The notes under the pieces were generated by a model. It searched no databases, was not told where the DNA came from, and was given only the letters and a program-made list of their open reading frames with translations. Below, piece after piece: positions 6,682 to 25,635 of a stretch of DNA of 34,879 nucleotides. Source of the stretch: Gemmatimonadales bacterium. GTDB lineage: Bacteria; Gemmatimonadota; Gemmatimonadetes; Gemmatimonadales; GWC2-71-9. Position numbers and translations under genes: made by a program. Numbering within the stretch: the first letter of the stretch is position 1; each line of letters begins with the position of its first letter. The stretch is from the NCBI GenBank assembly GCA_025928955.1, contig JAICNA010000003.1, forward strand, positions 1 through 34,879, written 5' to 3'.

Positions 6682-9600
6682 GTGCTGGCCGGCCCGATTC
6701 GCGGTGACCTCCTCGGCGCCGAGCGCCTGGCCGAGCGGGCGCAGGCCCTCGCCAAGTCGCAACGGCTCGCCAGAGGGGGGCGCCGGAAGACCCCGCTGCT
6801 CGCGCGGCTGGACAGTACGCGGAGCATTCTCGCCGGCGCCCATCGCCGACTGCTCGATGCGGCGGACAGCGGCCGCGAAGTGGGACCGGCGGGCGACTGG
6901 CTGCTCGACAACTACTACGTCGTCCAGGAGCACATCGGCGAGGTGCGGGAAAGCCTCCCGAGCGGCTATTACCGCGAGCTTCCGGAACTGGCCACCGGAT
7001 CGCTCGCGGGATATCCGCGGGTGTACGAGCTGGCGATCACGCTGATCTCGCATACCGAAGGGCGAATCGACCTCCAGAACACATCGAGCTTCGTGGGCGC
7101 CTTCCAGCAGTCGGCGACGCTCACCATCGGCGAGCTCTGGGCGATTCCGGCGATGCTCCGCCTCGGCCTGATCGAGAACGTGCGGCGCATGGCGCTCCGG
7201 ACGGTCCAGCGGCTCGACAGCCTCGAAGCTGCGGATGCCGCGGCGGCCGGGATCCTGGCCGCCCAGGCCGACGAGCCGGCGCTCGAAGCCGCCTTGCAGG
7301 ACTTCATCTCGAGACGCCCGCCGCTCGACGCGATCTTCGTCTCGCGATTCCTGCATCAGCTTCGGTCCGAAGGCGGTGCACACCCGACGCTCCGCCGCCT
7401 CGAGCAGTGGGTGACCGAGGAGGCGTTCGGCGCTGAGGAAGCGACGTCCCGCTCGACGCAGCGGCTCGCCCTCACGCAGATCGCCATGGCGAACAGCATC
7501 TCCAGCCTCCGCGCCGTCGGACGGATGGACTGGAAGACGTTCGTCGAAGCGCAGAGCCGGATCGAGCACATCCTGCGCGCCGATCCCTCCGGGGATTACG
7601 CGCGCATGACATTCGCCACCCGCGACCGGTACCGGCACGTCGTCGAGAACATGGCGCGGCGGACTCGCAAGCCGGAGACCGCGGTGGCGGAGCTCGCCAT
7701 CGAGTGCGCGCGCCACGGCGCCGCCCTTCATCCCGGCGCCGCCCGCTACGCCCACGTCGGCTACTACCTCGTGGACGACGGGGTTGCCGAGCTCGAGCGG
7801 CTGACCGGCTACCGGCCCCATATCCGCGAGGGCCTGTACCGCTGGGTGCATCGTCACCCGGACGTGGTCTTCGTGGGCGGAGTCGCCGCCGCGACCGCGG
7901 CGGCGCTGGCCGCCCTCCTCTGGCTCGGCGGAGCGGGGGTGCGCACCGAGTGGCTCGCCGCGCTGCTCCTGGCGTTCATCCCCGCGAACGACATCGCCGT
8001 CAACGTGGTGAACCAGCTCGTCACGGCGCTGCTGCCGCCACGGCTCCTTCCGAAGCTCGACCTCCGGGAGCACGGAATTCCCCCCGAGTTCCGGACCGCG
8101 GTCGTGATCCCGACGCTCTTCGCGAGCCTGGAGGCGGTCGAGGAATCGCTCGAGAACCTCGAAGTGCAGTTCCTGGCCAACCGGGAAGCGCACCTGCATT
8201 TCGCGCTGCTCAGCGACTTCACCGATGCACCGACGGAGACACGCCGGGGGGACGAAGCGATCGTCGCCGCCGCGGCCGACGGCATCCGCGAGCTCAACCG
8301 CCGGTATGCCGCCGCGACCGGCGACGCCTTCTATCTCTTTCATCGCCCGCGGCGCTGGAACCCGCAGGAAGGCGTCTGGATGGGATGGGAGCGGAAGCGG
8401 GGGAAGCTCGCGGAGTTCAACCGCTTCGTGCTCGGTGAGGAAGGGAGCGGGTTCTCGACGATCGTCGGCGACGTCACGCCGCTCCGGAGCGTCCGGTACG
8501 TCATCACCCTCGATTCCGACACGGTGCTCCCGCCCGAGGCGGCTGCGCTGCTCGTCGGCGCGCTCGCGCATCCGCTCAACCGGGCCGAGTACGACCCCGC
8601 GCGCGGGCGCGTGGTTCGCGGCTACGGGATCCTGCAGCCCCGCGTCGGCGTGTCGCTGCCGAGTGCGCACCGTTCGCTCTTCGCCTCGATCCATTCGGGG
8701 CATCCCGGCGTCGATCCATACACCACCGCGGTATCGGACGTATACCAGGACCTGTACGGCGAAGGGAGCTTCGCCGGGAAGGGCGTCTACGACGTCGCCG
8801 CATTCGAGCAGGCCACGGGTGGCCGCTTCCCCGAGAACGCGCTCCTCTCGCACGACCTGATCGAAGGGAACTACGCGCGGGCCGGCCTCGCCACGGATGT
8901 GATCGTCTACGATGATTACCCCGCCCGATACCTCACCTATACCCGGCGCAAGCATCGCTGGACGCGCGGCGACTGGCAGCTGCTTCCCTGGCTCCGCCGC
9001 CGCGTGCCCGCGGCCGGGGGCCGCGAGCCCAACCGGCTCTCGCTGCTCTCGCGATGGAAGATCGTGGACAACCTGCGCCGGAGTGTCGTGGAAATCGCGC
9101 AGCTCACGTTCCTCCTCGCCGGCTGGCTGTTCATGCCGGTGACGCCGATCCGGTGGACGCTCGTCGGGCTCGGCGCGATCGCGGCTCCGTGGGTCGTGTC
9201 GCTGCTCCTCGCGATCGTGCGCCCGCCGTTCGACAAGTCGTGGCGCGCGTATTACGGAGCGGTGGCGCGCGACGCCGCGACGAGCGCCAAGCAGTTCGCG
9301 CTCGCCGTGGTCTACCTGCCGCATCAGGCGTGGAACTCGGCCGACGCGATCGTCCGCGCGCTGTGGCGCATGGCGGTATCCCGGAAGCACCTCCTCGAAT
9401 GGCAGACCGCGGTGCAGACCGAGCGGTCGACCGAGGATTCCGCGAGCGTGGTGTGGCGCGCCATGTGGCCCGCCGCGCTCGTCGCGGCGCTGGTGCTCGC
9501 GATCATCCTCTGGCGCGCAGCGCCCGGCAGCTCGCATCCGGCCCCGCTCTGGCAGCTGGGTGTCGGGCTCCTCACGCTCGTCATCGCCTGGGCCGTGTCC

Positions 9601-12600
9601 CCCGCCATCGCGCATGCCCTCGGCGCGCCGGCCATCGCCCGCGAACAGCGGCTCTCGCCGGACGCGAGAGGGCAGGTGATCCGGTACGCCCTGTTGCACT
9701 GGCGGTACTTCGAGACCTTCGTGACGGCCGAGACGAACTGGCTGGCGCCGGACAACTTCCAGGAAGACCCCACGCCCACCGTCGCGATGCGCACGTCGCC
9801 CACGAACATCGGGCTGCAGCTCATTTCCACGGTGAGCGCGGCGGACCTCGGCTTCATCGGGATCGGGCAGGCCGCGGAGCGGCTCGAGCGCGCCCTCCGC
9901 TCGCTCGAGCGGATGCGGCGATTCCGCGGGCACTTCTACAACTGGTACGGCCTCGCGGACCTGCACGTCCTCGAGCCGGGCTACATCTCGACGGTGGACA
10001 GCGGCAATCTCGCCGGGCACCTGATCGCGCTCCGGCAGGGCTGCCTCGAGCTGATCGAGACGCCGGCGGTCGATGCGCGGCTCATCAGGGCCGTCGAAAC
10101 GGCGCTCGATCTCTGCGAGCTCGCCCTGCTGGCCGCCCGCAACGCCCCAGAGGCGGATGGTGCCGAGCGGGCCGCTCGCAAGATTCCCGGCGAACTCGGT
10201 GCGGCGCGAGCCGCCGCGAAGGAGGCGCGCCGGGCACCGGTCTCGACGGCGGGGATCGAGAGCCTGGCCCAGCTGCTCCGGCGCGCGGAAGCCGCGCTTC
10301 GCGCAGACCGCGCCGAGGATGCCTACTGGGTGAGCTGGTCCCTCGCGCTCCTCGAGGCGCAGCGTCCCTGGATCTCGCTCGCCGAGCGGCAGCCCGCCGC
10401 GACGCTGCGCGAGCTCGCGCGCGATTCGGCGGAGGCCGCACGCCTCGTGTCGCGCCTCGAGGCGCTCGGTGAGCGGGCCTTCCAGTATGCGATGGACATG
10501 GACTTCCGCTTCCTCTTCGACGAGCAGCGACGCCTCTTCGCGATCGGGTTCCAGCAGACGAGCCACACCCTCGATGGATCCTATTACGACCTGCTCGCGT
10601 CCGAGGCCCGGCTCGCGAGCTTCGTGGCCATCGCCAAGAACGACGTGCCGGTCGAGCACTGGTTCCGCCTCGGGCGGACGCTCACGCGGGCGAGCGGCGC
10701 GCCGGCGCTCGTGTCGTGGAGCGGCAGCATGTTCGAATACCTCATGCCGATGCTGGTGATGCGGTCGTTCCCCTTCACGGTGCTGGCGGAAACGTACGAA
10801 GGGGCGGTGCAGCGGCACGCGTCATACGGCGCCGAGCGTAATGTGCCGTGGGGCGTGAGCGAGAGCGCTTACAACGTGCGGGACCGCACCTACACTTATC
10901 AGTACCGCGCCTTCGGCGTCCCCGACCTCGCCCTCAAGCGCGGCCTCGGTCGCGACCTCGTCGTGGCACCGTACGCGTCGATCCTGGCCGCGATGGTCGA
11001 GGCGCGCCGGGCCCTGCCGAACCTCATCCAGCTCGAGTCCCTGGGCCTGCTCGGCCCCTACGGGTTCCGGGAGGCGGTCGACTTCACGCGCCCCGATCCC
11101 GAGAAGGAGTTCGCGGTCGTCCGCGCCTACATGGCCCATCACATCGGCATGGGGCTCGTGGCGCTGACCAACATCCTCGCCGGGCAGGTCTGGCAGCGGC
11201 GATTCCACGCCGACCCGATGGTGCGCGCCGCGGAGCTGCTCCTGCACGAGCGCATCCCGCGGCGGCTCGTGATTCACCGGGCGCAGGGCGCGCGCCTCGA
11301 CGAGGCGCTGCCCGAACCGGAGATGGAGCGGCCCGCCGTCCGCGAGATCGAATCGGCGGACACGCGACGCCCGCACGTGGCGCTGCTTGGCCAGCTCCCA
11401 TACACGATCATGATCAGTCATTGCGGCGGCGGCTACAGCCGGTACGGGGGCATGGCCGTGACCCGCTGGCGCTCGGACGGGACGCGCGACGCCACCGGGC
11501 AGTTCTGCTACGTGCGCGACAACTCGACCGGGCAGGTCTGGTCGGCAACGCACCAGCCGGTCGGCGCCACGGCGGACTGGTACCGCGCCTACCTGGCCAC
11601 CGATCGCGTGACCGTGCACCGCGCGGACGGCGAGATCGAGACGCGCACCGAGATCGCGGTGGTACCCGAAGACTCCGCGGAGGTGCGGCGCGTGACGGTG
11701 ACGAACAACTCCGACGCCGTCCGTGAGGTCGACCTCACGAGCTATGGCGAGATCGTGCTCGCGGCGCCCGAGTCGGACCGCGCGCACCCCGCGTTCGGCA
11801 ACCTCTTCGTCGAGACCGAGTATCACGCGTGGTGCTCCGCGATCACCGCCACGCGGCGCCCGCGCTCCGGCAAGGAGCAGCCGATCTGGTGCGTGCACGT
11901 GGTCGCGACCGGCAGCGAGCGCGCCGACGCGGTGACGTGCGAGACCGACCGCGCGCGCTTCCTCGGCCGCGGGCGGACGACGGCCGATCCGGTGTCCGTG
12001 GAGAACGGGACACCGCTCTCCGGCACCACCGGCGCGGTGCTCGATCCCATCTTCGCGCTGCGCGTCCGGCTCCGGCTGGAGCCGGGTCAGGCGGCGAGCG
12101 CCTCGTTCACGACGCTCATTGCCCCGAATCGCGAACGGGCATTCGAGCTGGCGGATCGCTACAACGATCCGCATGCAGCCCAGCGGGCACTCGACCTCGC
12201 CTGGACCTCCACGCAGATCGAGCTCCGGGAGCTCGGCGTGACGCCCACGGAAGCGGCGGTGTTTCAGGAGCTGGCAGGCGACCTCCTCTATGGCGCAGCC
12301 GCGCGTCGCGCGACGCAGGCCGAGCTCCGGCTCAACCGCGGATCGCAGCCCCTGCTCTGGGCCAACGGCGTCTCGGGCGACTGGCCGATCCTCCTCGCGA
12401 CGATCGAGTCCGCCGAGGGCCTGCCGACGCTGCGCCAGCTCCTCACGGCGCACCGGTACTGGCGCCGGCGCGGCATGACGGTGGACCTCGTGATTCTCAA
12501 GACGCAGCCCTCGCAATACCTGGGGGATCTGTCCGAGCGGGTCACGGCGCTGCTGCACACGGTGGGCGAGAGCGGCGTGTTCGACCAGTCGGGCGGCGTC

Positions 12601-15324
12601 TTCATTCGCCAGGCGGACCAGCTCGGCGCCGACGAGCTCGCCATGCTGCGCGCCACTGCCCGTCTCCACGTCAACTGCGACGGCCGCGCGCTCGGGAGGA
12701 TTACCGAGGCCGCCGCGCCGTACGACGCGGCCGATCAGGATGAGGAGGAGTCGGCAGCGGCGCCCGACGAGCCGCGGAGCCCGGAGCGGCGGCGCCAGTC
12801 CCGCGTCGCGCGCGCGGTCCGGCGCCTCGGCGGGGCCCTTCCGTCGTTTCTCGCGCCGCTCGGCCCCGGGTCGGCGCCGGCCCATCCGCCGGGACCGGGC
12901 GCCGGCGCGCGCCACAGCGCGACGCCGGGGCTCGAGAACGGATTCGGGCGGCTCGCGCCGGATGGCGCGTACGAGATCGAGGTCGCGGGCGATCGCGTAC
13001 CGCCGGCACCATGGATCAACGTCGTCGCGAACCGCGCGGGCGGGTTCATCGTGTCGGAGCGCGGCGGCGGATGCGCCTGGGCGGAGAACAGCTTCTTCTA
13101 CCGGCTCACGCCGTGGCACAACGATCCGGTGAGCGATCCGGTGACCGACGCGATCTACCTGCAGGACTCGGCGAGCGGCGCACTCTGGACGGCGACACCC
13201 GGACCGGTGGACACCGGCGCGACGTTCACGGTCCGCCACGGACCGGGATATTCGTCGTTCGAGTCGGTGCACGATACGATCCGGACGCACCTCACGCTCG
13301 GCATGGCGGACGAGGCGCCGATACGCGTCTCGGTGCTCCGGGTCACGAACGAGGGCGCTGCCCCGCGCAGCCTCACGGTCACCAGCTATCTCGAATGGGC
13401 GCTCGGCGCGCTGCGTGAGCACACCCAGCACACCATCCGCACGGAGTTCGACGCCGGCACGGGAACGATCTACGCGTCGAACACGTTCGACCCCAGCTTC
13501 GCGTCGTGGCTGGCGTTCCACTCCATCAGCGCGGCCGTGTCGGCCCATACCGCGAGCCGGCGGGACTTCCTCGGCAGGAACGGATCACCGGCCGCACCCG
13601 CTGCGCTGGTGCACGGAGAGCCACTGGGCGGGCGAACAGGCGTCGGCAAGGACCCCTGTGCGGCGCTCCAGTGCCTGCTCGAGCTCGATCCGGGCGAGAC
13701 GCGGGAAGTCGTCCTCATCCTCGGCGCGGCGGCGTCGGCGGAGGAGGCCCGGCGCCTCGTGGCGGAACACCGTGACGGGCGCGTGGCGCGCGCTGCGCTC
13801 GACCGGTCCATCGAGGGGTGGTCCCGGCGGCTCTCGGTGGTGCAGGTCCGCACTCCCGAGCCGACCTTCGACGCGATGCTCAACCAATGGACCCTCTATC
13901 AGGCGCTCGCCTGCCGGATGTGGGGGCGGACGGCGCTCTATCAGAGCAGCGGCGCCTACGGATTCCGCGACCAGCTCCAGGACTCGATGGCCTTCCTGCA
14001 CGCCGAGGCGGGCGTCTCGCGCGAGCACCTGCTCCGTGCCGCGTCACGGCAGTTCCTGGAGGGGGATGTGCAGCACTGGTGGCATCCGCATAACGGGCGC
14101 GGTGTCCGGACGCGGTTCTCCGACGACCTCGCGTGGCTTCCGTTCGTCGTCGAGCATTACGTCGGCGTCACGGGGGACACTGCGGTGCTCGACGAACAGG
14201 TGCCGTTCCTGTCGATGCGGCTGCTCGAGCCGGAGGAACACGAGGTCTACGACCTGCCGGAGGTCGTGGCGCAGCGCGCGTCCCTCTACGACCATTGCCT
14301 TCTCGCGCTCCGGCGCGCGTGCACGACGGGAGCGCACGGCCTCCCGCTGATCGGCATCGGCGACTGGAACGACGGGATGAACCGGGTGGGGGTGGAGGGG
14401 CGCGGCGAAAGCGTGTGGCTCGCCTGGTTCCTGATCACGACCCTGCGGAGATTTGCCGCGCTCGCCGATGCGCGCAGCGACGACGCGACGGCATCCGAGC
14501 TTCGCGCGCAAGCCGATGCCTATGCCGCCGCCGTCGAGATGCACGCCTGGGACGGCGCCTGGTATCGCCGGGCGTGGTTCGACGACGGCACGCCGCTCGG
14601 ATCGTCGGAGAGCGAGGAGTGCCGGATCGATTCCATCGCGCAGAGCTGGAGCGTGATCTCCGGTGCCGGCGCGCCCGGGCGGCAGGCGCAGGCGATGCAG
14701 TCACTCGAGACGCACCTCGTGCGGGAGGACGCCCGCCTGCTCATGCTGCTGACGCCGCCGTTCGACAAGACGCCGCTCGATCCCGGGTACATCAAGGGCT
14801 ACCTGCCCGGGGTGCGCGAGAACGGGGCGCAATACACCCATGCGGCGCTGTGGGCGGTGCTGGCGACGGCGCTCCAGGGCAACGGAGACCGGGCGCTCGA
14901 GCTGTACCAGATGATCAATCCGCTCACGCACGCCCGAACGCCGGCTGACGTCGCCACCTACAAGGTGGAACCGTATGTCGTCGCGGCGGACGTCTACACG
15001 GCCGAGGGGCACCTGGGCCGCGGCGGTTGGACGTGGTACACCGGGTCGGCAAGCTGGATGTACCGGATCGGCCTCGAGGGCATCCTGGGACTCGAAAAGC
15101 GCGGGAATTCCCTCCACATCCAGCCACGCGCCCCCGCCGCATGGCAGGAGTACCAGATCGAGTACCGCTTCGGTGGAAGTACCTACGCCATCACGGTGCG
15201 GCGAGACGCCGGCACGACGTCGGTCGTCGCAGCCGTGGACGGCACGGAAACTCCGGACGGAAGCATTCCGCTCGTCGACGATGGACGGCGGCACGACGTC
15301 GTGGTGCGCCGGCCGGCGACGTGA
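6682..15324 (+). CDS. ndvB: Cyclic beta-1,2-glucan synthase-like protein (GT84 + glucoamylase-like + GH94-type domains)
   Basis: 2880 aa; VITLDSDTVLPPEAA, DLIEGNYARAGLATDVIVYDDYPARYLTYTRRKHRWTRGDWQ (GT), two carbohydrate-binding supersandwich repeats, C-terminal YGFRDQLQDSMAFLHAEAGVSREHLLRAASRQFLEGDVQHWWHP and GIGDWNDGMNRVG (GH94 catalytic region). True N-terminus uncertain (see findings). Confidence 0.93.
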   Translation: MLAGPIRGDLLGAERLAERAQALAKSQRLARGGRRKTPLLARLDSTRSILAGAHRRLLDAADSGREVGPAGDWLLDNYYVVQEHIGEVRESLPSGYYRELPELATGSLAGYPRVYELAITLISHTEGRIDLQNTSSFVGAFQQSATLTIGELWAIPAMLRLGLIENVRRMALRTVQRLDSLEAADAAAAGILAAQADEPALEAALQDFISRRPPLDAIFVSRFLHQLRSEGGAHPTLRRLEQWVTEEAFGAEEATSRSTQRLALTQIAMANSISSLRAVGRMDWKTFVEAQSRIEHILRADPSGDYARMTFATRDRYRHVVENMARRTRKPETAVAELAIECARHGAALHPGAARYAHVGYYLVDDGVAELERLTGYRPHIREGLYRWVHRHPDVVFVGGVAAATAAALAALLWLGGAGVRTEWLAALLLAFIPANDIAVNVVNQLVTALLPPRLLPKLDLREHGIPPEFRTAVVIPTLFASLEAVEESLENLEVQFLANREAHLHFALLSDFTDAPTETRRGDEAIVAAAADGIRELNRRYAAATGDAFYLFHRPRRWNPQEGVWMGWERKRGKLAEFNRFVLGEEGSGFSTIVGDVTPLRSVRYVITLDSDTVLPPEAAALLVGALAHPLNRAEYDPARGRVVRGYGILQPRVGVSLPSAHRSLFASIHSGHPGVDPYTTAVSDVYQDLYGEGSFAGKGVYDVAAFEQATGGRFPENALLSHDLIEGNYARAGLATDVIVYDDYPARYLTYTRRKHRWTRGDWQLLPWLRRRVPAAGGREPNRLSLLSRWKIVDNLRRSVVEIAQLTFLLAGWLFMPVTPIRWTLVGLGAIAAPWVVSLLLAIVRPPFDKSWRAYYGAVARDAATSAKQFALAVVYLPHQAWNSADAIVRALWRMAVSRKHLLEWQTAVQTERSTEDSASVVWRAMWPAALVAALVLAIILWRAAPGSSHPAPLWQLGVGLLTLVIAWAVSPAIAHALGAPAIAREQRLSPDARGQVIRYALLHWRYFETFVTAETNWLAPDNFQEDPTPTVAMRTSPTNIGLQLISTVSAADLGFIGIGQAAERLERALRSLERMRRFRGHFYNWYGLADLHVLEPGYISTVDSGNLAGHLIALRQGCLELIETPAVDARLIRAVETALDLCELALLAARNAPEADGAERAARKIPGELGAARAAAKEARRAPVSTAGIESLAQLLRRAEAALRADRAEDAYWVSWSLALLEAQRPWISLAERQPAATLRELARDSAEAARLVSRLEALGERAFQYAMDMDFRFLFDEQRRLFAIGFQQTSHTLDGSYYDLLASEARLASFVAIAKNDVPVEHWFRLGRTLTRASGAPALVSWSGSMFEYLMPMLVMRSFPFTVLAETYEGAVQRHASYGAERNVPWGVSESAYNVRDRTYTYQYRAFGVPDLALKRGLGRDLVVAPYASILAAMVEARRALPNLIQLESLGLLGPYGFREAVDFTRPDPEKEFAVVRAYMAHHIGMGLVALTNILAGQVWQRRFHADPMVRAAELLLHERIPRRLVIHRAQGARLDEALPEPEMERPAVREIESADTRRPHVALLGQLPYTIMISHCGGGYSRYGGMAVTRWRSDGTRDATGQFCYVRDNSTGQVWSATHQPVGATADWYRAYLATDRVTVHRADGEIETRTEIAVVPEDSAEVRRVTVTNNSDAVREVDLTSYGEIVLAAPESDRAHPAFGNLFVETEYHAWCSAITATRRPRSGKEQPIWCVHVVATGSERADAVTCETDRARFLGRGRTTADPVSVENGTPLSGTTGAVLDPIFALRVRLRLEPGQAASASFTTLIAPNRERAFELADRYNDPHAAQRALDLAWTSTQIELRELGVTPTEAAVFQELAGDLLYGAAARRATQAELRLNRGSQPLLWANGVSGDWPILLATIESAEGLPTLRQLLTAHRYWRRRGMTVDLVILKTQPSQYLGDLSERVTALLHTVGESGVFDQSGGVFIRQADQLGADELAMLRATARLHVNCDGRALGRITEAAAPYDAADQDEEESAAAPDEPRSPERRRQSRVARAVRRLGGALPSFLAPLGPGSAPAHPPGPGAGARHSATPGLENGFGRLAPDGAYEIEVAGDRVPPAPWINVVANRAGGFIVSERGGGCAWAENSFFYRLTPWHNDPVSDPVTDAIYLQDSASGALWTATPGPVDTGATFTVRHGPGYSSFESVHDTIRTHLTLGMADEAPIRVSVLRVTNEGAAPRSLTVTSYLEWALGALREHTQHTIRTEFDAGTGTIYASNTFDPSFASWLAFHSISAAVSAHTASRRDFLGRNGSPAAPAALVHGEPLGGRTGVGKDPCAALQCLLELDPGETREVVLILGAAASAEEARRLVAEHRDGRVARAALDRSIEGWSRRLSVVQVRTPEPTFDAMLNQWTLYQALACRMWGRTALYQSSGAYGFRDQLQDSMAFLHAEAGVSREHLLRAASRQFLEGDVQHWWHPHNGRGVRTRFSDDLAWLPFVVEHYVGVTGDTAVLDEQVPFLSMRLLEPEEHEVYDLPEVVAQRASLYDHCLLALRRACTTGAHGLPLIGIGDWNDGMNRVGVEGRGESVWLAWFLITTLRRFAALADARSDDATASELRAQADAYAAAVEMHAWDGAWYRRAWFDDGTPLGSSESEECRIDSIAQSWSVISGAGAPGRQAQAMQSLETHLVREDARLLMLLTPPFDKTPLDPGYIKGYLPGVRENGAQYTHAALWAVLATALQGNGDRALELYQMINPLTHARTPADVATYKVEPYVVAADVYTAEGHLGRGGWTWYTGSASWMYRIGLEGILGLEKRGNSLHIQPRAPAAWQEYQIEYRFGGSTYAITVRRDAGTTSVVAAVDGTETPDGSIPLVDDGRRHDVVVRRPAT

Positions 15325-18916: not shown

Positions 18917-20275
18917 ATGGCGCGCCCCACACGGCCCATTCATATTCGCCGTTCGATGAGACGTCTCGCCGCATCGATTCGCCGCCGCCTCGGGGCCCGC
19001 CGCATCCCACTCCCACCCGGCCAGGCGGGTGACGAGCTGCGCGAGCGCGTGCTCGGCACCGCTCCCCGCCTCGAGCGCATCCTCTTCGAGAACATCCTGC
19101 CCTTCTGGTACCCGCGCGTCCTCGACCTGAAGCACGGTGGCTATCACCTGAATCACGGCCCCGACGGCACATCGCTCGGCCCGGCGCGGAAGAGCCTCGT
19201 CGGGACGGCCCGGACGCTCTGGTTCTTTTCCAGGATGGCACGTGCGGGGCACCAGCGCGATGCGATGCTGGAGGCGGCCCGGCACGGGTACGACTTCCTC
19301 GTGACGAGCTTCCTCGATGACCGGCACGGCGGGTTCTACTGGCACGTTTCCGAGGACGGCGCGGTGCCGCTCGATGCGACGAAGCATCAGTACGGACAGG
19401 CGTTCGCGATCTTCGCCCTCGCGGAATACGCGATGGCGACGGGATCCGAAGGGCCTGCACTGGTCGCGGAGGAGGCCTGCGAGCTGGTGGAGCTGCACCT
19501 GCGCGATCCGGAGCGCGGCGGATACTGGGACCAGCTCGAGCGGACCTGGGGGCCGGGGGCGCTCGAGCCGACCCGCACGCGAGGCGGCGCCAAGTATCTC
19601 GGCTCGATGCACCACCTGATGGAGGCGTACACCTGGCAGGCCCGGGCGCGGCCGGGGTCCATCGCAGCCGCCCGTCTCCCGGAGCTCATCCTCGTCTGTG
19701 CGAATGCGGTCGTCCGCATGCGGGAAGGCGCGCTGACCGACGCGCACCGACCCGACTGGTCGCCGCTCCTCGATGAGGAGCACGCGCGCGTCTCCTACGG
19801 TCACGACATCGAGACGATCCATCTCCTCATCGCCGCATGCGAGGCCGCGGGCGTCACGCCGCACGTGCTCTCCGGCCTCTATCGCGCGCTCCTGCAGAAC
19901 GCGCTGGCGCACGGGCACGACCGGCGGAAGGGCGGCTTCCACTACATGGGGCCGCTCGGGAAGCGGGCGGATCGCCGCGAGAAGATCTGGTGGGTACAGG
20001 CGGAGGCACTGCTCGGTACTCTCGAGATGTACCGGATCACCGGCGATCGCGCGCCCGCCGAGACGTACCTCTCTACGCTGGGCTGGGTCGAATCACGGCA
20101 GGTGGACTGGACGCATGGAGAGTGGCACGCGACCGTGCCCCCGCGCGGCCGCCCCTACGGCAGGAAGGCCGACGCCTGGAAAGGGCCGTACCACTCCGGC
20201 CGCGCGGTCATTCACTCACTGGAGGCGCTGGCGGCGCTGAGGGCGCCACGCGACGGCGACCGATCGAGCGCTTGA
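18917..20275 (+). CDS. AGE (N-acylglucosamine/cellobiose 2-epimerase) family protein
   Basis: LPFWYPRVLDLKHGGYHLNHG, KSLVGTARTLWFFSRMA, KHQYGQAFAIFALAEY, SYGHDIETIHLL, KIWWVQAEALLG, KGPYHSGRAV. Confidence 0.9.
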   Translation: MARPTRPIHIRRSMRRLAASIRRRLGARRIPLPPGQAGDELRERVLGTAPRLERILFENILPFWYPRVLDLKHGGYHLNHGPDGTSLGPARKSLVGTARTLWFFSRMARAGHQRDAMLEAARHGYDFLVTSFLDDRHGGFYWHVSEDGAVPLDATKHQYGQAFAIFALAEYAMATGSEGPALVAEEACELVELHLRDPERGGYWDQLERTWGPGALEPTRTRGGAKYLGSMHHLMEAYTWQARARPGSIAAARLPELILVCANAVVRMREGALTDAHRPDWSPLLDEEHARVSYGHDIETIHLLIAACEAAGVTPHVLSGLYRALLQNALAHGHDRRKGGFHYMGPLGKRADRREKIWWVQAEALLGTLEMYRITGDRAPAETYLSTLGWVESRQVDWTHGEWHATVPPRGRPYGRKADAWKGPYHSGRAVIHSLEALAALRAPRDGDRSSA

Positions 20276-20936
20276 GCATGGTGAACATGTCCTCCGCGCT
20301 CGCGTTCCAGTTGGCGGTGAGGTTCCGCCCGTGCCTGCGACGGCGGACGAGGACGTCCGGCACGCATTCGGTCACGATGCCCGCCTCCCGCGCCCGGAAG
20401 TGCCAGTCGGTATCCTCGCCGGTGCGGAGCGCCGGGTCGAACGGCCCGATCCGGTCGAACAGCTCCCGCCGCATGAGCATCAGCGGTGGACCATGCGCGA
20501 GATGCGGCTGCGCGAGCCACGTGTCCCGCGCCCGCTCCTCGATCTCCCTGAGCTCCGGCTCCCAGAAGTTCTGGAGGTAGCCGACGCAGAGGTCGATCGA
20601 CGGATTGCGTCGGAAGCAGTCCATCTGCCGCTCGAGCTTGTCCGGCACCCAGAGGTCGTCCGCGTCCTGGAAGGTGAGCCATCCCCCGCGCGCTTCCGCC
20701 ACGCCGCGGTTGCGCGCAGCCGAGGGGCCGGCGTTCGGCTGGAAGAACGTGCGGATCCTGTCGCCGAACCCCGCGAGGATGTCCTCGGTCCCGTCGGTGG
20801 ACCCGTCGTCGACCACGATGACCTCGAGGGGTCGGTAGGCCTGCGCCAGGACGCTCTCGATGCTCGCGGCGACGAATCGTGCCCCGTTGTACACAGGGAT
20901 GACGCAGCTGACGAGGTCCGGATCGTATCGGGTCAC
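20208..20936 (-). CDS. Glycosyltransferase family 2
   Basis: LVSCVIPVYNGARFVAASIESVLAQAYRPLEVIVVDDGSTDGT … FQDADDLWVPDKL; GTG start overlaps the upstream stop (GTGA). Confidence 0.93.
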   Translation of the reverse strand: MTRYDPDLVSCVIPVYNGARFVAASIESVLAQAYRPLEVIVVDDGSTDGTEDILAGFGDRIRTFFQPNAGPSAARNRGVAEARGGWLTFQDADDLWVPDKLERQMDCFRRNPSIDLCVGYLQNFWEPELREIEERARDTWLAQPHLAHGPPLMLMRRELFDRIGPFDPALRTGEDTDWHFRAREAGIVTECVPDVLVRRRRHGRNLTANWNASAEDMFTMLKRSIGRRRVAPSAPPAPPVSE

Positions 20937-21631
20937 GAGGACGGCACCTCCTTCCGTCGGTCCTTGTTGCGCTTGAGCAGCGCGAGAAATTCGTCGCGGC
21001 TCTGCGGGGCGGCCTTCCGCGAGCGGTTGTTCGCGTGGATGCGGCGGCGCAGGAGCACGTCTGGCAGCAGCTCACCGCGCAGGCCGGCCTCCCGGGCGCG
21101 CAGGAACCAGTCGGCCGAATCGCCGTGGCCGAGCTCGGCGTTCATCGGGCCGACGCGGTCGAAGGCCGCCCGCCGCGCGAGCAGCGTCGGCGACACCCAT
21201 CCCGCGATCGGCTCCGAACGCCGGTGGCCCCTGTAGCGGTCCGCCTCGTCCTGCATCTCCTCGACCCAGAAGTTCTGCACGTGCGCCACGCAGAAATCGA
21301 GCTCCGGTTTCGCGTCGAGCAGCGCCAGCTGCACCGCCAGCTTCTCCGGTGTCCACAAGTCGTCGGAGTCGTTGAAGGCGATGAAGTCGCCGCGCGCCAC
21401 GCCGAGGCCGGTGTTCCGCGCGACGGCCGGTCCGGCGTTCGCCTGGCGCAGGCCGCGGACCCGGTCGCCGAAGCGGCGGATCACGGCAGGGGTTCCATCC
21501 GTGGAGCCGTCGTCGACGACGATGATCTCGAGCGGCCGATGCGCCTGGGCGAGGATGCTCTCGATCGACTGCGCGAGGTATGCCTCGCAGTTGAACACCG
21601 GGACGATGCAGCTCACCAGGGGACTGCTCAT
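20933..21631 (-). CDS. Glycosyltransferase family 2 (paralogue of the adjacent gene)
   Basis: LVSCIVPVFNCEAYLAQSIESILAQAHRPLEIIVVDDGSTDGT … NDSDDLWTPEKL; start MSSPLVSC at 21631, 4-bp overlap with the upstream gene. Confidence 0.93.
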   Translation of the reverse strand: MSSPLVSCIVPVFNCEAYLAQSIESILAQAHRPLEIIVVDDGSTDGTPAVIRRFGDRVRGLRQANAGPAVARNTGLGVARGDFIAFNDSDDLWTPEKLAVQLALLDAKPELDFCVAHVQNFWVEEMQDEADRYRGHRRSEPIAGWVSPTLLARRAAFDRVGPMNAELGHGDSADWFLRAREAGLRGELLPDVLLRRRIHANNRSRKAAPQSRDEFLALLKRNKDRRKEVPSS

Positions 21632-22689
21632 TCGGCCTCTCCGCGGAGCATGCGGCCGATCGCGTCGGGAATGCCCGGCAGATCGGATCCGAGCTCCAGC
21701 CAGTAGGTGGGTACCGATTCGACGAGCGCGGCCATCGTGTCGAAGCGGGCGCGGCCGGCGCCCAGGAACGGAAGCTGGAACAGTGAGCTGGGCGCGAGCT
21801 GCTTCAGCACGGCAACCTTCGACGCGGGGCGGAATCGCGTCTCGACGCGCGGCACCACGCGCGGAAGCGCAATGGCACGAATCGCCGCGCCGTTGGCGAA
21901 TCCTTCCGGAAACAGCCCCGACAGAAGGACCATGTGCTTGTCTTCGCGCTCGAGCTTCCCCGGCATCGCGTGCGGCACGAGGTCGGGAAACCGCTGGAGG
22001 TGGTGTGGCTCGAAGTGGCTCGATGAATAGAGGCTGTGGCCGAACCAGGTGCCGTCGTCCCGCCGCTCGAGTCCGACATAGTCGTCGGCGAGGTACTGGT
22101 AGCCGGCCCGGAGGCACGTCACGGCCGTCGTCGTCTTCCCCGATCCTCCCGGTCCGCCGAAGAGCACGCCTTCACCGTCGCGGGCGACGAGACCGGCATG
22201 CACGGCCTGGATCCCGCGATCGCGCATCCAGAGGAGGAGCGACGCATGGAGCGGGCGGCCGAGCTCGTACTGGGTGAGCCGTTCCGCCGAGCTCACCCAG
22301 CCGGTCTTCGCGCTCGCCTGGCGGTCGGAGAGCGTCACCGTGCACGGGCTCTGCTGCTTTACGTGCCGTCCGCCGTCGTAAACCATCACGGTGCCGTGAG
22401 CGTTCGGGTCGCTCCCCTCGACGCAATCCTCACAGCCCACGCCTGTCGCCGCTTCGTCCCACAGGTCGATCGTGAGATCGGGCGCGGCGGCGCTTTCGGC
22501 AGCGCGAAGGTGGGCGAGCGGCCGGTCGTATGCGTCGCCGAGTGCGCGTCCGGCGAACCGCATCCGCACCGGACGTCCGGCGATGCGGTAGTCTCGCACC
22601 ACGACCTGGTCCGGTTGGGCCGCGCAGGCCGCGCGGAACGCGCCCGACAGCCGCTCGTACGTGGCGACACCAGCCGCGCTGGAATTCAT
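21628..22689 (-). CDS. HPr kinase-like P-loop protein
   Basis: LLWMRDRGIQAVHAGLVARDGEGVLFGGPGGSGKTTTAVTCLRAGYQYLADDYVGL (P-loop and DD motif); start MNSSAAGV at 22689. Confidence 0.87.
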   Translation of the reverse strand: MNSSAAGVATYERLSGAFRAACAAQPDQVVVRDYRIAGRPVRMRFAGRALGDAYDRPLAHLRAAESAAAPDLTIDLWDEAATGVGCEDCVEGSDPNAHGTVMVYDGGRHVKQQSPCTVTLSDRQASAKTGWVSSAERLTQYELGRPLHASLLLWMRDRGIQAVHAGLVARDGEGVLFGGPGGSGKTTTAVTCLRAGYQYLADDYVGLERRDDGTWFGHSLYSSSHFEPHHLQRFPDLVPHAMPGKLEREDKHMVLLSGLFPEGFANGAAIRAIALPRVVPRVETRFRPASKVAVLKQLAPSSLFQLPFLGAGRARFDTMAALVESVPTYWLELGSDLPGIPDAIGRMLRGEAE

Positions 22690-23903
22690 GCGATCTCCGC
22701 CTCGAGGGAGCCCGGCATCCTGACCCGTCGCACGCGCTCGCGGAAGGCGGCGATGCCATGGTGCCAGATCCGGTATGGGTAGAGCAGTGGAACCGGCAAT
22801 CGCCGGCCGCGGTAGGCGTGACGCAGGTACGACGCCGAGGGGAAGAGCAGCCAGCCGAGTGCCCAGAGCCTGGGCCGAACACCTCCCGGGACGCGACGCA
22901 CGAGTGCGAGCGCCGGCAGCCCGGCCCGAGCCCCGTAGAGCGCAATGTCGCGGGCGATCGGCGAGGCCTCGCGTGCCAGGCTGTCGAGCCGATCGAGCAC
23001 CGCTCCCGGGATCGGACTCTCGAGCTCTTCCGCGAGATAGCGCAGCATCACCGAAACCGGCAGCGCAAGGCGCGCTGCTGCAGCTCCGCTGACGGCGACT
23101 TCCCAATCGATCTCGGGACCGCGATGGATCAGCAGCCATGCATCGATGACCCATCGAAGACTCCCGCGAACCGGGCTCTGCGACGCGCCGCCGCAGATGT
23201 GCAGGAGCTGGTCGGCGGCGCCGAGCGTCCGCACGCGCTCGCCGAGCAGGGCGCGCCGCTCGGCGCGACCGTGCATCCCGGGGAGCTCCGCGGCATAGTA
23301 CGGATCGAGAAAGAGCGATGAGTGGATCTCGACCGGGAGACCCGACGGATGTACCAGGCGGACGCCGCCCGGCAGACGATCGGGATCGTCGGCCCGCTCC
23401 GTGAACCCTGCCGCCCGCGCGGCATCCACGGCGCGCTCGAGTTCGGCGGGCGGAACGAAGAGGTCGATGTCGTGGGTGTGGCGGCGGAACGGCTCCGGAT
23501 ACACCGTCTCGGCCAGCACGATCCCGCGCAGGAGGATCGCATCGACGCCACGATCCGCGAGTGATGCGATCAGGCTGCGCGCGAGTCGCCGCACGGTCTC
23601 GTAGCGAACCCGCTCGCGCGCGGCGGCCATGCGGAGCACCCGCAGGGAGTCGCCGCCGACGTGCGGTGCGCCATCGGCGTCCGCCGCCCTCGCTTCGAGC
23701 AACGGGCTCAGCGTCCGCAGCGCGGCCCGCTGCGGGGCCGGGAGGAGCTGCGGCCGCTCGAGCTCGGGCGCAATGCCGGCGAGCGCGCGGCGACCCGCTT
23801 CACCCCGAAGGAGCGCAGCGCGGAGCAGCCGCGTCTGCCCGCCGTCGGGCAGCAGCAGCGCGAGGCCCGACGTGAGAGCGGCCTCGCGAGCAGTCACAGC
23901 CAT
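22686..23903 (-). CDS. Uncharacterised nucleotidyltransferase family protein (NTP_transf_5-like)
   Basis: ILLRGIVLAETVYPEPFRRHTHDIDLFVPPAELERAVDAARAAGF; DxD pattern; 4-bp overlap with the HPrK-like gene. Confidence 0.85.
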   Translation of the reverse strand: MAVTAREAALTSGLALLLPDGGQTRLLRAALLRGEAGRRALAGIAPELERPQLLPAPQRAALRTLSPLLEARAADADGAPHVGGDSLRVLRMAAARERVRYETVRRLARSLIASLADRGVDAILLRGIVLAETVYPEPFRRHTHDIDLFVPPAELERAVDAARAAGFTERADDPDRLPGGVRLVHPSGLPVEIHSSLFLDPYYAAELPGMHGRAERRALLGERVRTLGAADQLLHICGGASQSPVRGSLRWVIDAWLLIHRGPEIDWEVAVSGAAAARLALPVSVMLRYLAEELESPIPGAVLDRLDSLAREASPIARDIALYGARAGLPALALVRRVPGGVRPRLWALGWLLFPSASYLRHAYRGRRLPVPLLYPYRIWHHGIAAFRERVRRVRMPGSLEAEIA

Positions 23904-23912
23904 GGCGAGAGA

Positions 23913-24350
23913 TTATCCGGCGACGGTCGCGTCGCCCCAGGCCGACTCGTCGAGCCCGGGCATCGGAGGATCGAGTGCGAGCAGGTCCGCCATGTCGGTG
24001 AACTTCTGCAGCGACGGCGTGGCGTATTCGGCCTGCATGCTCACGTACGGGACCGCAGCTGGAGCGGGGCGCTCGGCGACGACCAGAAGCTCCTCGGCGA
24101 GGAGGTCATCGACGACGGCGTCGACGTCGCGCTCGAGCATCTCACGCGCCACGTCGAAGCGCTCGGCGAGCGCGGAGACGGATTCCTCGCGGCTGCACCC
24201 CTGCTCGAGCAGCTCCCAGAGCGCGGCGCCTACGCCGTCCATGCTGTAATACGCTCCGGTCGCCAGGTTCATGATGATGGCTTCGCCATCGATCACCTTG
24301 CCGGTCACGTCGCCGCTCCGGAGCTGATATCGCACCGCTGCATCGGACAT
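23913..24350 (-). CDS. PqqD family protein (RRE-like) with lasso-leader-like C-terminal tail
   Basis: Start MSDAAVRYQLRSGDVTGKVIDGEAIIMNLATGAYYSMDGVGAALWELLEQGCSREESVSALAERFDV; tail YATPSLQKFTDMADLLALDPPMPGLDESAWGDATVAG encoded at 23913-24026. Confidence 0.88.
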   Translation of the reverse strand: MSDAAVRYQLRSGDVTGKVIDGEAIIMNLATGAYYSMDGVGAALWELLEQGCSREESVSALAERFDVAREMLERDVDAVVDDLLAEELLVVAERPAPAAVPYVSMQAEYATPSLQKFTDMADLLALDPPMPGLDESAWGDATVAG

Positions 24351-24405: not shown

Positions 24406-25635
24406 CTACGGAAGGGTTCTCCAGACGCCGAGGTCGCGCCGGCCCGTGTCGGTCGCCAGGCCGAGCGGCGCGCAAAGCGCGATCCAGCATTGGTATAGCG
24501 CGAGCGAAAGCGCCAGCCGCGCGCCGGTGCCGCCCCGTCGCCGGGCGCCGTCCGGATCGTCGGCTCCCTGCCAGACCCACTCCAGCGGCTCCTCCTCACC
24601 GGCCATCAGCCGCCTCAGATGTTGCGTCCGCGCGGCACCGGCAGCGAGCCAGATCTCCTGCAGGAATGCGCCGAGCCCGCGCTCCGGCCCGGTTCCCCTC
24701 GCGATCCCTGATACCGGTGTGAGCAACGCCAGCGCCGCCTGCGCCGCGCGACCGACACCGAGGCGGCGCACCAGGTCGGAAGGGACCGCGGTGCCGAGCA
24801 GGCGATGCGACAGCTGGAGCGACAGCGCCACCGGCGCACCGAGGCCGCCGCGCCTCGCTTCCGCAACCACGGCATCCCAGTCGATCGGGTGTGCCGCAAT
24901 CACCCGGTCGAGATCCACCAGGCGGCGGAGCTTGGAGAAGTGATCCTCGGTGTTCTGCGAGGACAGGTGGAGCACCATGTGCTCGGCACACGGAACGCGC
25001 GCCACCCCGCCGCCGAACTCGACGCGCTCGGCGCGCGCGATGAACTCCCGCGCATCGAGCCGGTGGGTGCTCACGTCGGGCGTCAGCGCCCAGTGCAGCT
25101 CCGCTTCGAACCCGTTCGGGTGATGGAGCGGCAGGTGGAAGTGGTGATCGCGAAAGCCGTCGATCACCGCCTGCGAATCGGGCATCCGGTATCCGGCCGC
25201 CACGAGCCGCTCGACGACGCGATCCATTTCCGCGTCGGGGACGAGGAGGTCGAGGTCGCCGACCGGCCGCTCGACGGGATTGCGATAGGTCGTGAGGCGG
25301 AGCGCAGCGCCCTTGAGCAGGACCGGCGAGAGCCCCTCGCGCGCGAGGAGGGCGAGGACGCGATCGCGCTCCATGTCCCAGAGACGGGCCTGCTGAGCGA
25401 GGGTCCGGAGCGGCGCCGTGATCGCGCTCGAGGTCGCGGCATCGAAGCCATGCGGCGCGCGCGATCGGAAGGCGGAAAGCACCAGGCCCAGCACGCCCTG
25501 GCGCATCGCATAGGCGTGGAACGCACCGCGATCGGCCGCCCGCCCCAGCGGACGCAGCTGGTCGGAATCCAGCTGCTCGGACGCATCCCGGCGGCTGAGC
25601 GCGAGCGTGAGCTCGAAGGCTTCTCCGATCTTCAT
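24406..25635 (-). CDS. Uncharacterised nucleotidyltransferase family protein (NTP_transf_5-like), paralogue of 22686-23903
   Basis: VLLKGAALRLTTYRNPVERPVGDLDLLVPDAEMDRVVERLVAAGYRMPD; ELHWAL; HLSSQNTEDHFSKLRRLVDLDRVI. Confidence 0.85.
   Translation of the reverse strand: MKIGEAFELTLALSRRDASEQLDSDQLRPLGRAADRGAFHAYAMRQGVLGLVLSAFRSRAPHGFDAATSSAITAPLRTLAQQARLWDMERDRVLALLAREGLSPVLLKGAALRLTTYRNPVERPVGDLDLLVPDAEMDRVVERLVAAGYRMPDSQAVIDGFRDHHFHLPLHHPNGFEAELHWALTPDVSTHRLDAREFIARAERVEFGGGVARVPCAEHMVLHLSSQNTEDHFSKLRRLVDLDRVIAAHPIDWDAVVAEARRGGLGAPVALSLQLSHRLLGTAVPSDLVRRLGVGRAAQAALALLTPVSGIARGTGPERGLGAFLQEIWLAAGAARTQHLRRLMAGEEEPLEWVWQGADDPDGARRRGGTGARLALSLALYQCWIALCAPLGLATDTGRRDLGVWRTLP

Follow-up and report, generated by a model that had tools for sequence, protein, structure and literature searches.

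RREs are known to read separate leader peptides. The locus described here raises the question of why a gene for a PqqD-family RRE should also encode, at its own C terminus, a segment resembling such a leader. The gene lies in the window, by which we mean the whole stretch of DNA analysed (34,879 nucleotides of contig JAICNA010000003.1 from a Gemmatimonadales bacterium), at 23913..24350 on the minus strand, and encodes 145 amino acids. Its tail occupies 23913-24026 (minus strand), from the Tyr109 codon through the stop codon, and reads YATPSLQKFTDMADLLALDPPMPGLDESAWGDATVAG. Four parts, all on the minus strand, can be distinguished: an RRE domain (residues 23-89; 24084..24284); a linker that is variable by sequence and by comparison of its length with relatives (residues 90-108; 24027..24083); a leader-like tail half that is predicted to be docked on the RRE (residues 109-119, YATPSLQKFTD; 23994..24026); and a second tail half that is predicted to be undocked (residues 120-145, MADLLALDPPMPGLDESAW...; 23916..23993). 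A protein search of the assembly, which is 78.5% complete, returned one match to the RRE-tail protein.

The Pfam PqqD profile PF05402 matches residues 23-89 with 62.5 bits against a cut-off of 23.4 (E = 4.9e-17). In a scan of the NCBIfam profiles the RRE fell below every cut-off, including those of the lasso_PqqD models (49.2 bits vs 80 and 38.5 vs 70) and of TIGR04353, PqqD_rel_X (HPr-rel-A) (15.8 bits vs 35); the models that match the tail-bearing family are seven general PqqD models and no others. As modelled with AlphaFold2 (AF2) from an 88-sequence alignment, the window protein has a winged-helix RRE fold. The top Foldseek matches are the TbiB1-leader complexes 5V1V and 5V1U (36-37% identity, 1.1 Å, E = 2.2e-06), which makes TbiB1 the nearest solved relative, followed by the TfuB1-leader complex 6JX3.

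The preliminary description aligned the tail without gaps to the leaders of lasso precursors. That register is correct: the tail has Y0, P3, L5, D10 and L14, and positions +9 and +15 hold T and L. The motif match is real but covers only half of the conserved unit, which continues through DMx(D/E)LLxLDP and beyond; the consensus derived from the sequence logo is (F/Y/W)xxPxLxx(Y/F)(T/S)DMx(D/E)LLxLDPIH(D/E)VxExGWP. At position 0 Phe is commoner than Tyr in the family, and the T at +9, previously read as a replacement of the leader Gly, reflects a T/S position typical of the family and not the decay of a Gly. To collect homologues, GTDB species genomes were scanned with a degenerate nucleotide pattern encoding DMx(D/E)LLxLDP, which yielded at least 117 loci, mostly from MAGs and including a few near-duplicates; at least about 87 of these have an RRE gene ending in the tail. 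Positions within the pattern are conserved by construction, but Y/F0, P3, L5, Y/F8 and the residues after LDP lie outside it and are conserved as well. The motif [YFW]xxPx[LIVFAMY] is correctly placed in 79 of 94 related proteins, compared with 0.28 expected from shuffled tails. Among the matches listed, at least about 100 RRE proteins end in the tail and, judging from record titles, they come from at least 12 phyla (Gemmatimonadota, Bacteroidota, Chloroflexota, Cyanobacteriota, Acidobacteriota, Planctomycetota, Verrucomicrobiota, Nitrospirota, Actinomycetota, Pseudomonadota, Chlamydiota and Omnitrophota, among others) and one archaeon. A lack of conservation at the Y/P/L/D positions in homologues would have refuted the leader resemblance; these positions are conserved across phyla.

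Several homologues found by a whole-protein search of the phylum align through the tail. In a plasmid collection the full-length query recovered only distant PqqDs, aligned over the RRE part alone, and the tail on its own gave one match, a plasmid-borne PqqD of the cyanobacterium Crinalium whose flanking genes encode a nucleotidyltransferase, an HPr kinase and glycosyltransferases. The second tail half, in which DLLxLDP is conserved and mostly followed by IH(D/E)VDExGWP, is more conserved than the leader-like half. It has no counterpart in lasso leaders, and a profile of the tail matched no PDB chain. In seven members, including the window protein (ALDPPMP), DPIH is replaced by a minority variant, ALDPP(M/L/V)P, and these members form a loose grouping on a tree of the RRE domain. 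Tail proteins as a whole cluster strongly on that tree, which neither shows nor excludes a single origin.

Fusion of the tail to the RRE is close to invariant. Among the matches listed, 99 of the 101 strong tail ORFs contain a PqqD domain in the same frame, and an archaeal ORF (L091), whose RRE had been hidden by a cut at the locus edge, is the 100th case. The tail profile alone identified 13 clear tails (E <= 5.5e-9) in 395 Gemmatimonadota genomes, one per genome and all within RRE frames of 150-282 codons; it found no stand-alone tail peptides in those genomes. The linker between domain and tail is 14-28 amino acids long in relatives, with a single case of 56. A 99-aa ORF with a perfect tail and no PqqD domain (L113, identical to L173) occurs in a fragmented Acidobacteria MAG alongside two other copies that are fused; it may reflect an assembly break or may be a true stand-alone tail.

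Does the leader-like half occupy the groove in which leaders bind? In the AF2 model of the window protein, the RRE has a pLDDT of about 95 and residues 111-120 reach 91, with a strand at 115-117; beyond residue 120 the pLDDT falls to about 60. In the model of the family member from Oscillatoria sp. PCC 10802, residues 111-130 have pLDDT values of 87-89 and the tail forms strands at 116-117 and 123-126. That model has an additional RRE strand at 65-66, which maps in an ungapped alignment to the E61 site of LppB, where the protein backbone anchors LppB's leader (PMC13381572). A tail predicted to lie away from the groove would have counted against the leader reading; instead, AF2 sets YxxPxLxxF/Y as a strand against the RRE. 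Placement in the groove itself is inferred from the strand pattern, the model confidence and covariation, and was not measured on coordinates.

The covariation analysis shares its alignment with the AF2 model. In LppB, D70 hydrogen-bonds the leader tyrosine, and N33 contacts the leader backbone and secures the kink at the proline, on which F74 packs (PMC13381572). The counterparts in the window protein are residue 75 for D70, residue 38 for N33 and residue 79 for F74. An LppB-type pocket that reads the tail should have Asp75 (24126..24128, minus strand) paired with Tyr, and not with Phe or Trp, at position 0. Of the 26 proteins that have Tyr at position 0, 14 carry Asp at the D70-equivalent site; of the 57 that have Phe or Trp, 3 do (Fisher 1.4e-6). 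When redundancy is reduced at 60%, this association ranks first among 330 column-residue tests (2.5e-6; the runner-up reaches 1.6e-3), and reduction at 40% identity leaves it standing (0.0012). The only safeguards against shared ancestry were this thinning of the alignment and the ranking against other columns, with no full phylogenetic model. By corrected mutual information, the two top RRE-tail pairs are E86-K116, in which E goes with K and H with V, and D38-Q115, in which R goes with E and D with N. The window protein itself combines Tyr109 with Asp75 and Lys116 with Glu86. Of 88 tail proteins, 27 have N or D at the N33-equivalent position, compared with 18 of 19 tailless RREs (the latter counted by eye). 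Such a relaxation would be expected if tethering took the place of tight capture, which we only infer.

The TbiB1-like fold, the modelled placement of the tail against the RRE and the covariation of Asp75 with Tyr together make it very likely that the tail is a leader on a tether, docked in its own family's groove. We have high confidence in the docking of the leader-like half as such, as predicted jointly by the model and the covariation, but docking in cis and swapped docking in trans between two copies are indistinguishable with these data. The earlier proposal that a leader-like segment is covalently joined to an RRE-like domain is accordingly supported by cross-phylum conservation, the AF2 placement and the pocket covariation together.

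In the window, the gene is part of a tight operon on the minus strand in which several genes share a few bases with their neighbours. The order is an upstream nucleotidyltransferase (24406..25635; PF14907, NTP_transf_5, by Pfam), the RRE-tail gene, a second nucleotidyltransferase of the same family (22686..23903) starting 9 bp past the RRE stop codon, a 353-aa HprK-like kinase (21628..22689) overlapping the stop codon of the preceding gene, and two family 2 glycosyltransferases (GT2; 20933..21631 and 20208..20936) assigned by family profile. A 2880-aa ORF near this glycosyltransferase operon (6682-15324, plus strand) resembles, by eye, a protein of the cyclic beta-glucan synthase/phosphorylase type.

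Similar partners recur elsewhere. Of 27 well-flanked tail loci, 22 have an HprK-like kinase near, 23 a GT2, 17 an NTP_transf_5 and 12 an ABC exporter, the exporters scoring best against MsbA-like and peptide-exporter models; kinase and NTP transferase are both near in 14. At the level of sequence, then, the conservation of the tail, its invariant fusion and its operon partners are established. Several RREs without the tail (L019-L021, L024, L025 and L030) have HprK-like genes at their flanks too, so the tail is not required for the HprK association. A Smithella locus with a tail-bearing RRE encodes an HprK-like kinase fused to GT2 (L101, 3448-5244, plus strand).

The preliminary description had compared the tail with lasso leaders. 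The leader-like segment stands, but no lasso cyclase or B2 protein was found nearby, and it is the tailoring set of LPP/paeninodin that the operon resembles (PMC13381572). A macrolactam cyclase (Asn synthase-like) and a B2 peptidase are absent from the window operon and from all families assigned to 73 downstream genes, and neither is among the 25 commonest families of 118 further neighbours, a list that leaves out 50 rarer families. No SipW-like or other signal peptidase was found in the window operon, the 73 downstream genes or those 25 commonest families; S26-like ORFs, recognised by eye, adjoin only the different tail of L014 and L028 described below. A regular-expression search of the tail loci for a separate precursor with a lasso-like leader, run without a positive control, returned spurious ORFs only, and when small ORFs near tail genes were clustered, the sole peptide in common was a Tat-like pair from two loci. 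These small Tat-signal-like peptides (L033, 6200-6694, plus strand; L064, 40-219, minus strand) end in IQSRAHAS or a near variant and lie near tail-bearing RRE genes of a planctomycete and an unclassified bacterium, with two copies in L033.

We propose that the protein acts as a self-loaded adaptor, offering the enzymes of its operon an invariant segment to dock on. This function is inferred, without experiment, and we consider it about evenly balanced between right and wrong. The Y/F-x-x-P-x-L-x-x-Y/F segment would fold back across the linker of about 20 residues and add a strand to its own RRE, sitting in the groove used by lasso and LPP leaders, and the tethered leader would keep the RRE in a leader-bound state without a separate precursor. 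The second half (DMx(D/E)LLxLDPIH(D/E)VxExGWP, or the DLLALDPPMP form in the window) would then face outward as a fixed recognition surface by which the HprK-like kinase, the nucleotidyltransferase and/or the glycosyltransferases could be recruited or switched on, and these enzymes would act on a substrate that needs no leader of its own. That the second half recruits enzymes and that a separate substrate is modified are inferences, and there is no supporting evidence for any particular partner as its reader.

The main rival to the adaptor is a built-in substrate, in which the tail would itself be the precursor, its leader half docked in cis and its near-invariant core phosphorylated, nucleotidylated or glycosylated, making the protein a self-modifying carrier. 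We regard this as possible although rather unlikely. The operon matches the LPP/paeninodin tailoring set, whose HprK-like kinases act on the peptide (PMC13381572), the search near tail genes, run without a positive control, turned up no other leader-like ORF, and a peptide-type ABC exporter lies near 12 of the 27 well-flanked loci. Yet the second half has no conserved Ser, Thr, Tyr or Cys column, and 16 of 97 members lack both Ser and Thr in it; for this reason we favour the adaptor. The tail also occurs in one copy per RRE with an invariant sequence, unlike variable RiPP cores, and no leader-peptidase family is among the neighbour families listed. A broader version, in which the system is RiPP-like and widespread, a single polypeptide serves as both recognition element and precursor, the RRE holds its own leader and the invariant C-terminal segment is modified in place, is somewhat more doubtful still; if true, the HprK-like kinase, the nucleotidyltransferase and the glycosyltransferases would modify that segment, and the protein could be a reusable carrier for surface-glycan assembly.

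An autoinhibitor, ranked after the built-in substrate, would block the groove until displaced by a precursor encoded elsewhere. The occupancy of the groove predicted by AF2 suits such a role, as does the relaxation of the free-leader-capturing residues at the N33-equivalent site, by which the cis leader may be weak; but it leaves the higher conservation of the second half over the leader-like half unexplained and has no candidate precursor near tail genes, and we consider it improbable. We give even less credence to the tethered leader serving merely to complete the fold, with the second half a localisation or partner tag unrelated to RiPPs. Without leader, LppB is insoluble and the stability of PbaB1 is marginal (PMC13381572), but a specific partner is indicated by how strictly DLLxLDP...GWP is conserved and by the setting of the operon. 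Chance or decayed resemblance in an ordinary low-complexity C terminus, which has only the original single-sequence match in its favour, can be dismissed almost entirely given the cross-phylum conservation, the invariant fusion and the covariation.

The closest known system is the LPP pathway, lppAKBSDN of Paenibacillus alginolyticus (Popov et al. 2026, PMC13381572). Its precursor, LppA, is a separate peptide with the motif YxxPxVLxHQxIxFETxxS and a variable core; the kinase phosphorylates Ser3, the SipW-like LppS cuts the precursor, and the pathway was described as restricted to Bacillota (PMC13381572). The two systems share a discrete lasso-B1-type RRE, docking of a YxxPx[V/L] leader (predicted for the tail family), an HprK-like kinase, an NTP transferase, an MsbA-like transporter and a glycosyltransferase-rich setting. 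In contrast to LPP, the tail family has leader and RRE in one chain, no variable core and members in many phyla; its operon amounts to the LPP set minus the separate precursor and the SipW-like leader peptidase, the latter missing from the window operon and from the neighbour families listed. With the lasso B1 RREs (TbiB1 5V1U/5V1V, TfuB1 6JX3, PbaB1 9X90) the family shares the RRE fold, the predicted β-strand addition and the leader motif [Y/W]xxPx[L/V/I/F/A], but its leader is covalent, Phe is commoner than Tyr/Trp, and no cyclase or B2 is seen. HPr-rel-A (TIGR04352/TIGR04353) and SynChlorMet (TIGR04248/TIGR04249) likewise pair a PqqD-like protein with an HprK-like kinase, but scores are far under the curated cut-offs and the 74-84-position PqqD models align within the RRE only.

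ConFusion enzymes are engineered RiPP enzymes to which a leader has been joined genetically (reviewed in PMC11002830). The covalent leader, owing to which the substrate needs none, is common to both; the tail family differs in being natural, in carrying the leader on a discrete RRE rather than a catalytic enzyme and in having an added conserved segment. By analogy, the self-loaded adaptor that we favour would be a natural counterpart of these constructs (PMC11002830). A search of the open-access literature, which leaves subscription papers uncovered, returned no natural leader-RRE fusions, PqqD C-terminal extensions or tail motif; the arrangement appears to be undescribed, and its novelty is provisional.

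Leader fusions have so far been built by hand by chemists, and the tail family looks like a natural leader-RRE fusion. It appears to have kept leader contacts while the leader changed, Tyr giving way to Phe together with loss of the Tyr-binding Asp, and it occurs in phyla ranging from Gemmatimonadota and Bacteroidota to cyanobacteria, and in one archaeon, with a short and nearly invariant motif below every NCBIfam cut-off. Genome miners hunting for precursor genes in tail loci would otherwise do so fruitlessly. The family also offers a compact test system for the targets of the uncharacterised PF14907 nucleotidyltransferases and of HprK-like kinases in RiPP/capsule loci, and for the hand-over of substrate from RRE to enzyme.

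Two Gemmatimonadota RREs, the only such cases in the 395 genomes, carry a different tail, (Y/W)ExPxxxxFGELEQLILSGE, in which the leader Gly at +9 is present (L014, plus strand, from 1440; L028, an RRE ORF on the minus strand). Both adjoin an ORF that by eye is signal-peptidase-like (S26-like) and an HprK-like kinase, and L028 also a nucleotidyltransferase; with these neighbours, the loci look like an LPP-type cassette outside Bacillota.
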